Assembly (NCBI GenBank): GCA_964023275.1 | Contig: OZ029925.1 | Span: 12,201,684 to 12,265,683, forward strand | Length of the DNA: 64,000 nt | Origin: Norana najaformis | Lineage: Eukaryota > Annelida > Clitellata > Crassiclitellata > Hormogastridae | Direction: 5' to 3' | Shown here: one piece after another, positions 18,628 through 22,788 of the stretch | Layout: every line of letters begins with the position of its first letter | How positions within the stretch are numbered: the stretch's first letter is position 1 | Program-made: the position numbers and the translations under genes | Notes under the pieces: generated by a model | Database searches by the model: none | What the model saw: the letters and a program-made list of their open reading frames with translations, nothing else | Told to the model about the DNA's origin: nothing

Positions 18628-18726
<99 letters not shown>

Positions 18727-18770
18727 GCACACTCGCCTGCCTACCTGCCTTCCTGCCAGTCTATCCATGA
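18485..18770. repeat. TGTC (CTGT) tetranucleotide microsatellite
   Basis: Irregular CAGT/CTTC units lead into a perfect CTGT run at about 18,630-18,727, some 24 copies. The translation VCLSVCLSV in all frames is a microsatellite artefact, not protein. Confidence 0.95.
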
Positions 18771-19812: not shown

Positions 19813-19845
19813 TATAAAAGGAGAGATCGATTGAAGGGCGGCTTC
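19813..19845 (+). promoter_or_regulatory. Hemerythrin core promoter: TATA box and likely start
   Basis: TATAAAAG at 19813-19820 is a strong TATA box. Transcription would begin about 25-30 bases downstream, near the CGACTC at 19,845, leaving a 5' leader of roughly 70 bases before the ATG at 19,916. The TATA box fits a highly and tissue-specifically expressed carrier protein (inference). Confidence 0.7.
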
Positions 19846-19915: not shown

Positions 19916-20427
19916 ATGACGACTGCCTACACGATTCCAGAGCCATTCATGTGGGACAAGACTTTCGAAGTCCTCGTGAGTTACTGACCCTTTCTTTTCA
20001 TTCTCTTTGTCTCTCTGCTACTGTTTCTGCCTCTGTCTTTTGTCTGTGTCCTTATCTGTCTTTGTCTACGTCTGCCTTTGTCTGTCTCACCTGTACGCTC
20101 CTCTGAGGGACACTGAAGGTTTAGTTTTGGCTCTAAACTAAGCGGATATGCCCAGGAAATGAAAATCTGTCACATATTCCACACTGGGACAAGATAGCTT
20201 TGCTTACGTATTCTCCATATCTGGAAACTCTTGACTTTATTTACTTGCTTACTTACTTGTTTGTTTACTTACTGACTTGTTTGTCTTGCATTTCGTAGTA
20301 CGAGAACTTGGATGAGCAGCACAAGACTTTGTTCCGATCCATCAAAGACATGTGCAACGACCCAAATGACAAGATGAGACTCGATGTCATGATCGCAGTC
20401 ATGATTGCTCACTTCCTCACCGAAGAG
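19916..20427 (+). CDS. Hemerythrin exons 1-2
   Basis: Exon 1 (19916-19975) encodes the N-terminal arm, 20 codons, and stops exactly at a codon boundary before gtgag. Exon 2 (20299-20427) encodes helices A and B: YENLDEQHKTLFRSIKDM, then VMIAHFLTEE. Three iron ligands lie here (His of EQHKT, His and Glu of HFLTE). Its donor, gtaag at 20428, is the first of nine near-identical copies. Intron 1 (19976-20298) is a pyrimidine-rich TCTGTCTC stretch with no other feature. Confidence 0.95.
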
Positions 20428-20849
20428 GTAAGAATTACCAGTTGCTCACTTCCTCACCGAAGAGGTAAGAATTACCAGTTGCTCACTTCCTCACTGAAGA
20501 GGTAAGAATTACCAGTTGCTCCCTTCCTCACCGAAGAGGTAAGAATTACCAGTTGCTCACTTCCTCACCAAAGAGGTAAGAATTACCAGTTGCTCACTTC
20601 CTCACTGAAGAGGTAAGAATTACCAGTTGCTCCCTTCCTCACCGAAGAGGTAAGAATTACCAGTTGCTCACTTCCTCACCAAAGAGGTAAGAATTACCAG
20701 TTGCTCACTTTCTCACCGAAGAGGTAAGAATTACCAGTTCATTGATAGATCAATTCATCGATCATTCATGTCTGTCCATCAGTCTATTCGTCCATCCATT
20801 CAACCACCTATAGCTCAAGCAATCAAGTAATCCAATCAGTCAGTCAGTC

Positions 20850-20881
<32 letters not shown>

Positions 20882-22788
20882 AGTCAGTCAGTCAGTAAGT
20901 CAGTTAGTAAGTTAGTTAGTAAATATATCAGTCTGTAAGTAAGTATGTCAGTCCGTCAGTCACAGTTAACTCCAACCACTCATCCATCCATCCATCCAAA
21001 TCAGAAATAACCGACGATTATGAGGAGCGAATCATGAGGACAAAAGCGACAACGGCTCTGATCATCATCGATAACTGCCGTTCGTTGTTGACTGTTGATA
21101 ATGATAAAGCTTGATGATGATTGTCGTTGTTTGACTATATAATGATGAAGCTTGATGATGATTGTCGTTGTTTGATTGTAGATAATGATGAAGCTTGATG
21201 ATTGTCGTTGTTTGACTGTTGATAATGATGAAGCTTGATGATGATTGTCGTTGTTTGATTGTAGATAATGATGAAGCTTGATGATTGTCGTTGTTTGACT
21301 GTTGATAATGATGAAGCTTGATGATGATTGTTGGTGTTTGACTGTAGATAATGATGAAGCTTGATGATGATTGTCGTTGTTTGACTGTAGCTAATGATGA
21401 AGCTTGATGATAATTGTCGTTGGTTGACTGTAGATAATGATGAAGCTTGATGATAATTGTCGTTGTTTGACTGTAGATAATGATGAAGCTTGATGATAAT
21501 TGTCGTTGTTTGACTGTTGATAATGATGAAGCTTGATGATGATTGTCGTTGTTTGACTATAGATAATGATGAAGCTTGATGATAATTGTCGTTGTTTGAC
21601 TGTAGATAATGATGAAGCTTGATGATAATTGTCGTTGTTTGACTGTTGATAATGATGAAGCTTGATGATGATTGTCGTTGTTTGACTGTTGATAATGATG
21701 AAGCTTGATGATGATTGTCGTTGTTTGACTGTAGCTAATGATGAAGCTTGATGATAATTGTCGTTGTTTGACTGTAGATAATGATGAAGCTTGATGATAA
21801 TTGTCGTTGTTTGACTGTTGATAATGATGAAGCTTTATGATGATTGTCGTTGTTTGACTGTAGATAATGATGAAGCTTGATGATGATTGTCGTTGTTTGA
21901 CTGTAGCTAATGATGAAGCGCGCCAACTACCCTGAGTACGCAAACCACAAGATGATGCACGATACCTTCATCGCAAAACTCAAAACTCTGAACTGCCCAA
22001 TCACAACCAACGACCTTCACTACTGCAAGGACTGGTCAGCATTCAAACGCAATCTCTAAAGTAACTAACTATAGTAAGGAATTTATATAGCGCTTTTTAA
22101 ACGGATGCGTAGAAAGGTGCAAAGATCTGCGACCTTCATAACTGATCAGGAGACTACGGTACCACTTTCTGTAAGTAAAAGCAAAACTCCCACGTCTCAC
22201 AGAGGGTCGTAGGGGAGGTGATCAGTTACTTTTCGTAGGCCATTGAGGCGGCAGTGAACAATCTTGAAGTTCTGGACATGGAGCAGTGCATCGCAGGACT
22301 TGCCATTTACTTACTCTGTTGCCAAAACCTAACTGATGGCCAAGAAAAGTGTGTGCAAGCAAGCAACTTGTCCAGGGCTCTTTACACAGAATCTGCTCGT
22401 CATGCTCGAAGTTTCAATCGTTGGATAACAAACCAGGCGTAATACCAAACAGACCATCGTACCACTTTCTGTAATGTAATGTGAATAGAAGATTTATTCA
22501 TCACTTATTATTATTTATCTACCTTGCCTTACCTTATCTTACATTACTTATTATTCTTTATCTACCTTACCTTTCGATGCCGTATACCTCAACTTACTTC
22601 ACCTCCTTCACCTTACTTTATGTTATCTTATCTTATCTCACCTTACCCTCATTTACCTAAGTTAAACCTAAGATACATTGCTTTACCTAACGTTACATTA
22701 CGTATGCGTTTTATCGCCTAGGCTTGTCAATCACATCAAGGGTACGGACCACAAGTACAAGGGCAAGCTGCACACCTACCCCATGTAA
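19916..22788 (+). CDS. Hemerythrin (di-iron oxygen carrier), complete four-exon gene
   Basis: Exons 19916-19975, 20299-20427, 21907-22034 and 22722-22788 join in frame to 127 residues and TAA. The start is the first ATG after the TATA box and gives the typical N-terminus MTTAYTIPEPFMWDKTF. Hemerythrin folds as a four-helix bundle holding two irons that bind O2. All ligands are visible: His in DEQHKTLF, His and Glu in AHFLTEE, two His in NHKMMHDTF, and His and Asp in LVNHIKGTD, followed by the family ending YKGKL. The usual length is about 118-120; this one is slightly longer at both ends (MTT start, HTYPM end). No signal peptide is present, so it should be cytosolic, in coelomic or muscle cells. 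The LTEELMM spacing matches annelid/sipunculan forms. Intron 2 is exceptional (see the arrays listed below). Confidence 0.96.
20405..20740 (+). repeat. 37-bp tandem array of the exon 2 / donor junction (9 copies)
   Basis: The last 23 bases of exon 2 plus the first 14 of intron 2 form a unit repeated nine times without spacers. GT donors fall at 20428, 20465, 20502, 20539, 20576, 20613, 20650, 20687 and 20724. Every copy keeps GTAAGAATTACCAG. Variants show a 111-bp higher-order period: copies 3-4-5 and 6-7-8 share the same differences (TGAAG, then CCCTT, then CCAAAG). Each copy also ends in AG, so each 23-base exon-like segment is flanked by AG and GT. Confidence 0.97.
20755..20975. repeat. 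CAGT tetranucleotide repeat in hemerythrin intron 2
   Basis: Perfect and near-perfect CAGT/GTCA runs at 20,834-20,900 grade into TTAG/GTAA units to about 20,945. They separate the donor array from the acceptor array. No coding signal. Confidence 0.9.
21085..21920 (+). repeat. ~43-bp tandem array of the acceptor / exon 3 junction (~20 copies)
   Basis: Units of about 40-46 bp run head to tail up to the true acceptor: TTGTCGTTGTTTGACTGTAG then [C/G]ATAATGATGAAGC-like sequence and TTGATGATGATTG. The last copy is the real intron 2 acceptor, with exon 3 starting at 21907. Two internal copies, with AG at 21390 and 21734, are identical to the true junction over GACTGTAGCTAATGATGAAG; others carry TAGATAATG or TTGATAATG. 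Copy number was counted by eye. Minus-strand ORFs full of SSSFII and SNNDN across it are artefacts. Confidence 0.95.
21907..22788 (+). CDS. Hemerythrin exons 3-4
   Basis: Exon 3 (21907-22034) encodes LMMKRANYPEYANHKMMH and onward to HYCKD plus two bases of a Trp codon; it carries the two His ligands of helix C. Exon 4 (22722-22788) completes the Trp and reads LVNHIKGTDHKYKGKLHTYPM and stop, supplying the last His and the bridging Asp of helix D. Intron 3 (22035-22721) holds a SINE with target-site duplication and a TTACC-type patch at 22,510-22,700. Confidence 0.95.
22159..22474 (-). repeat. SINE copy 3 with 16-bp target-site duplication
   Basis: An exact 16-bp direct repeat, GTACCACTTTCTGTAA, lies at 22159-22174 and 22459-22474 and flanks a 284-bp insert. 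The insert shares CTGGACATGGAGCAGTGCAT-like, CTTGTCCAGGGC, CACAGAATCTGCTC and CGTTGGAT blocks with copies at 18.1 kb and 5.8 kb. By comparison with the 18-kb copy its tRNA-like head lies at the right, so it is on the minus strand. Inserted in hemerythrin intron 3. The intact duplication suggests a fairly recent insertion. Confidence 0.7.

Follow-up and report, generated by a model that had tools for sequence, protein, structure and literature searches.

The nearest described relative of the gene structure presented here is the 31-bp VNTR of the human CBS gene, c.1444_1467+7(16_21), whose unit consists of the last exonic bases plus the donor site (24 + 7 bases by its name; PMC2630376). In the available text of that report it resembles one side of our locus, being a junction-spanning donor array, there of 16-21 copies with units that differ by substitutions; it departs from our locus in that only the donor end is repeated and in that polymorphism was shown in CBS, whereas the worm arrays are known from one assembly. 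The 38-bp VNTR in intron 6 of human TERT is likewise an intronic minisatellite of similar period that affects splicing, yet the passages describing it place it at a distance of over 1 kb from exon-intron junctions, none of which its unit spans (PMC3948165). Intron gain by tandem duplication also involves copies that carry splice signals (AG/GT in the classical model, the slash here and below marking the junction); there, as outlined in the accessible part of the source (PMC4974935), the intron is new, whereas intron 2 of hemerythrin is ancestral to its family. Earthworm metallothionein, also an annelid gene, contains large intronic minisatellite clusters; the available text locates them within intron 1 and mentions none at splice junctions (PMC12783039). 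Full-text literature on repeats at splice sites, a body of work that mostly leaves out subscription journals, yielded no acceptor-end and no both-ended case. The earlier note on this DNA knew of no described case with both ends amplified, which agrees with that literature, with the qualification that the donor-end type was already known from human CBS (PMC2630376); what appears to be new, relative to the literature covered, is a junction-spanning minisatellite at both ends of one intron.

The window, i.e., the whole 64-kb stretch of DNA analysed, belongs to a 608-Mb assembly made up of 17 contigs and contains on its + strand an intact four-exon hemerythrin gene, whose intron 2 carries the arrays:

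19916..19975, + strand, hemerythrin exon 1, coding part
20299..20427, + strand, hemerythrin exon 2, ending HFLTEE in phase 0
20405..20739, + strand, donor array (TRF: 37-bp unit, 9.1 copies, 95% matches, score 621)
20428..21906, + strand, intron 2, 1479 bases, of which 1264 (85%) are tandem repeats
20836..20962, + strand, (TCAG)n tract in mid-intron 2 (TRF)
21082..21919, + strand, acceptor array (TRF: period 43, 19.7 copies, 93% matches, score 1431)
21374..21416, + strand, acceptor unit 8, AG at 21390, with the same first 30 bases as the true junction unit
21718..21760, + strand, acceptor unit 16, AG at 21734, with the same first 30 bases as the true junction unit
21890..21919, + strand, last, partial acceptor unit, composed of 17 bases of intron 2 and the initial 13 of exon 3; AG at 21905-21906, probably the acceptor in use
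21907..22034, + strand, hemerythrin exon 3, starting LMMKRAN
22722..22788, + strand, hemerythrin exon 4 with stop

The joined exons form an open frame of 127 aa with a match to Pfam PF01814 (E 3.3e-10), and a protein search retrieved 16 relatives, the named ones being mostly annelid hemerythrins. The gene suggests an annelid-like animal as the source of the DNA. In an alignment of eight sequences, the closest relative of which is 75% identical to the window protein, the residues H28, H58, E62, H77, H81, H110 and D115, which we take to be the iron ligands of hemerythrin, are invariant; the gene has both the PF01814 domain and the conserved metal-ligand positions by which metazoan hemerythrins are recognised. 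The exon 2-exon 3 junction is fixed by homology, since the joint HFLTEE/LMMKRAN is ungapped in all eight aligned sequences and reads HFLTEE/IMMKRAN in the closest relative. Elsewhere in the window, a Pfam scan of 10 of its 280 ORFs found no family at E 0.001. Upstream of the gene, a perfect (TGTC)24.5 microsatellite occupies 18630-18727, about 1.1 kb before a TATAAAAG motif at 19813.

At both ends of intron 2 the repeated unit crosses the splice junction. The donor unit combines the last 23 bases of exon 2 with 14 intronic bases; GAG/GTAAGA is present in 9/9 units, so that all donor 9-mers are identical, and the unit varies at four positions, every one of them exonic. On the acceptor side, 19 units of 40-43 bases are followed by the 30-base final unit (13 exonic + 17 intronic bases). 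Each acceptor unit comprises a branch-point-like motif, a U/G-rich tract, the junction position and the start of exon 3. YTNAY serves as the motif rule for branch points, and in 19 of the 20 units a sequence of this form precedes the junction position by 23-26 bases (in unit 1 by 36); as a weak pyrimidine tract follows, nearly every AG-bearing unit resembles a complete 3' splice module. The AG at the junction position is kept in 12/20 units and lost in the other eight. Three identities, namely donor units 3-5 recurring as units 6-8, acceptor units 8 and 16 matching the junction unit, and the block 21335-21403 matching the junction block 21851-21919, which ends in exon 3, at 69/69 bases, show duplications that took in several units. 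Together with the (TCAG)n tract, the two arrays supply the 1264 repeat bases of the intron; at their TRF scores, both are taken to lie beyond chance. The earlier note had read the acceptor end, from the letters, as roughly 20 units of about 43 bp that run into exon 3, the last one supplying the acceptor and the first 13 exonic bases, with AGs at 21390, 21734 and 21906, two upstream units equal to the true junction over 20 bases and others mutated at the AG, and had described arrays at both ends of the intron. This description was borne out throughout, and the identity of the two upstream units extends to all 30 comparable bases.

Both units appear to be private to this locus. An assembly-wide search at up to 3 mismatches placed all nine matches of the donor unit inside the donor array and all 15 matches of the acceptor unit inside the acceptor array, and the reversed control patterns gave 0 in both cases. 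The possibility named in the earlier note as speaking against it, a satellite dispersed in the genome that merely adjoins exon 3, is therefore ruled out for copies of the acceptor unit at this mismatch limit. When the junction region was used as a DNA query, with a search tool that skips very common words, the array units, the query region and one exon paralogue were among the 19 matches. The left edge of that array as query gave 24 matches, 17 of them elsewhere (70-77% identity, six places); since all six places proved on inspection to be GAT- or ATC-type runs, the similarity is compositional. Tandem runs of the AGGTAAG type are common across the assembly (12002 triple matches vs 2657 for the reversed control), and as the places listed, the first on contig C1 only, are mostly simple repeats, this census says little on junctions.

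Seven hemerythrin loci were found in the assembly, with a common exon layout as far as located. The position of intron 2 is conserved on the donor side in 7/7 loci and on the acceptor side in the 6/6 located, and its length at the five other loci with both ends located is 369, 406, 409, 409 and 587 bases. Of 42 hemerythrin junctions 37 were located, and the two that arrays span are the ends of intron 2 in the window gene; the comparison with paralogues that the earlier note had proposed shows no array at the located ends of intron 2 at the other six loci. The place of the intron is common to the loci and the others show no array at its located ends, which indicates that intron 2 is old and its arrays later. 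The most informative paralogue, C13:11794, has a single donor copy and shares 81 of the last 90 bases of exon 2 with the window gene; its intron resembles the sequence after the last unit of the donor array, with moderate support (66 of 2000 shuffles reached the score), and the acceptor-side equivalent is missing from it, the acceptor stretch having been lost there.

A different paralogue, C13:7243, contains in its intron 2 a GAT-rich, imperfect two-copy repeat that aligns to the acceptor unit with a score of 40.5, which 0 of 300 block shuffles reached and which exceeds the maximum of 25.5 among 86 random stretches. An ancestral acceptor repeat common to both genes was nevertheless rejected and the similarity attributed to composition, as eight GAT- or ATC-rich stretches unrelated to hemerythrin exons score 41.5-59 against the same unit; common descent of the two sequences would still be conceivable.

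The locus is probably best explained by two independent, locus-private minisatellites that arose from junction-spanning duplications and are tolerated by virtue of exon definition. Each array would have been founded by a tandem duplication straddling a splice junction, of 37 bp at the donor and 43 bp at the acceptor, and would have grown by slippage or unequal exchange, one to several units at a time; multi-unit copying may have taken in the exon edge. The exon-side copy would be constrained by coding, while intron-side copies would be free to change. An independent origin of the two expansions on their junctions, as proposed in the earlier note, agrees with the different length and sequence of the two units, each of which contains a junction and coding bases, and with the single donor copy of the paralogue; the further step to a process directed at junctions does not follow, because at the array coverage of this genome (2.6% in the sample described below) two junction arrays need not mean a junction-specific mechanism.

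How such arrays could persist depends on the choice of splice sites. The nine donors and the 12 AGs at the junction position make 108 pairs, 36 of them in frame by length; leaving other GT and AG dinucleotides within the units outside the count, the frame is open in one pair, the first donor with the last acceptor, and each of the 19 single changes from it (8 donors, 11 acceptors) leads to a stop soon after exon 2. In a published database of alternative sites, where the sites are nearly equal in strength, intron definition is described as preferring the closest sites across the intron and exon definition the closest across the exon (PMC9225289, in the part available). Applied to intron 2, the exon-definition rule selects the outermost, productive pair and the intron-definition rule the innermost, unproductive one. 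Pairing of sites across the exon would favour the first donor and the last acceptor, and each added unit, by lengthening the intron, may reinforce exon definition. For acceptors this effect is presumably weaker: according to the same partial source, plain long-intron 3' sites keep their upstream preference under exon definition, though in weakened form (PMC9225289), so that the choice of the final AG among 12 is incompletely explained, and the acceptor end remains harder than the donor end to account for by exon definition. The locus amounts to a natural experiment in splice-site choice, in which nine identical donors stand against 12 near-identical acceptors and the protein shows which pair is needed; full-length cDNAs would tell the mode of recognition, innermost pairs pointing to intron definition and outermost pairs to exon definition. 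Spliced aligners can give false junctions between repeats, as the accessible text of one report describes (PMC10632439), which makes a split-read test of the internal acceptors risky. The locus also shows how a junction-crossing duplication can hide from selection and grow.

That the arrays fell on these junctions by chance overlap, in a minisatellite-rich genome where some introns become double-ended without a junction-specific cause, appears possible, if not the account we would favour; it overlaps the account by junction-spanning duplication and differs from it only in whether junctions are favoured. Arrays (period at least 20, at least 5 copies, at least 80% matches) cover 2471 of 95000 sampled non-N bases, or 2.6%, and at a threshold of at least 90% matches 1880 bases (2.0%). 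The sample, which is small and clumped, consists of ten 10-kb stretches (95000 of 100000 bases non-N), at 10 of 20 positions hand-picked from the first of four random lists before the stretches were analysed. In the rest of the window, arrays cover a smaller share, 843/64000 bases or about 1.3%. At the sample rate, 0.96 of the 37 hemerythrin junctions would be array-covered, and at least two would be with P 0.25. Against chance stands the coincidence of both ends in one intron, for which 18 introns give an expectation of 0.012 cases (both ends were located in 17 introns). A genome with 100,000 introns, a number that is an assumption, could contain tens of double-ended introns if arrays ignore exons, and at 0.5% coverage the expectation falls to 2.5. 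With minisatellites at 2.6% coverage, double-ended introns are possible by chance and the claim is tempered accordingly: the case is striking, yet it need not imply a junction-specific mechanism. Another stretch of the genome (L059) contains two clean minisatellites of 41 and 48 bp with 13-14 copies, at 356-904 and 2219-2887, within about 2.5 kb; reading by eye recognised no gene there.

It is unlikely that the arrays are functional, in the sense that competition among splice sites determines how much of the hemerythrin mRNA is productive, with copy number as the dial and wrong choices degraded. Under such a length-variable dial, nine identical donors would face 12 near-identical 3' splice modules with only the outermost pair productive, unit number would set hemerythrin output, and the locus would read out exon versus intron definition in an annelid. 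The uniform donor 9-mers, the AG retained at the junction in 12 acceptor units, the branch-point-like motif 23-26 bases ahead of it in 19/20 units and the lack of an open frame in 107/108 pairs fit this view, as does the precedent of the human TERT 38-bp intronic VNTR, which in the available text alters splicing (PMC3948165). They are offset by the loss of AG from 8/20 acceptor units, by the other six loci, at which the located ends of intron 2 carry no array, and by RNA structure without a sign of selection. For the acceptor array folded as a whole, z was -12.4 relative to 20 shuffles, and for the donor array it was +1.14 relative to 100; under a fairer null, in which a unit was shuffled and then repeated four times (300 shuffles), the four types of unit examined gave z from -1.6 to +0.2. 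Hairpins in the RNA that would mask the decoy sites were thus rejected as a candidate, the signal losing significance once the null includes the repeats. The predicted probability of being unpaired, for the AG alone, is 0.236 at the true acceptor, second of 19 listed units behind the decoy at 21734 (0.458); over four bases the true acceptor ranks third, and among the nine donors the first is third in predicted openness. Most units are predicted to be less open than the true acceptor, which is nevertheless not distinctive.

An assembly error by which a short repeat was inflated is highly improbable, and nothing was found in its favour: the variation among units is structured, with variant units, units of 40 bases and blocks of several units, and neither array would be long for a long read. 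The Rogers model, in which an intron is created when an exon segment containing AGGT is duplicated in tandem, recalls the AG/GT of the donor units and is described with cases in the accessible part of PMC4974935, yet it can hardly apply to an intron whose position is common to seven loci (donor side 7/7), six of them without an array at the located ends.

Further observations concern the hemerythrin paralogues. In the C13:7243 gene, the donor of intron 3, a further located junction, is adjoined by a GTCAGT-type array: the intron starts exactly with 265 bp of GTCAGT/CAGGCAGTCAGT repeats, the first bases of which are the donor itself (L046 3091-3355, C13 about 7244090). The same gene has a GC donor, GAG/GCAAGG, at intron 2 (L046 2593). 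The region at C13:11794452 (L047 4459-6063) contains the hemerythrin copy in which exon 3 is without its first part; the bases that follow exon 3 there (by eye, SAFKRNL-stop) are common to the window gene from 22035 on. Two very similar copies, C4:8731824 and C4:8988442 (L003 and L005), lie about 257 kb apart, and at the end of their intron 2 a near-repeat extends across the acceptor, with CTGATGATGCAG before the junction and GCGATGATGAAG after it.
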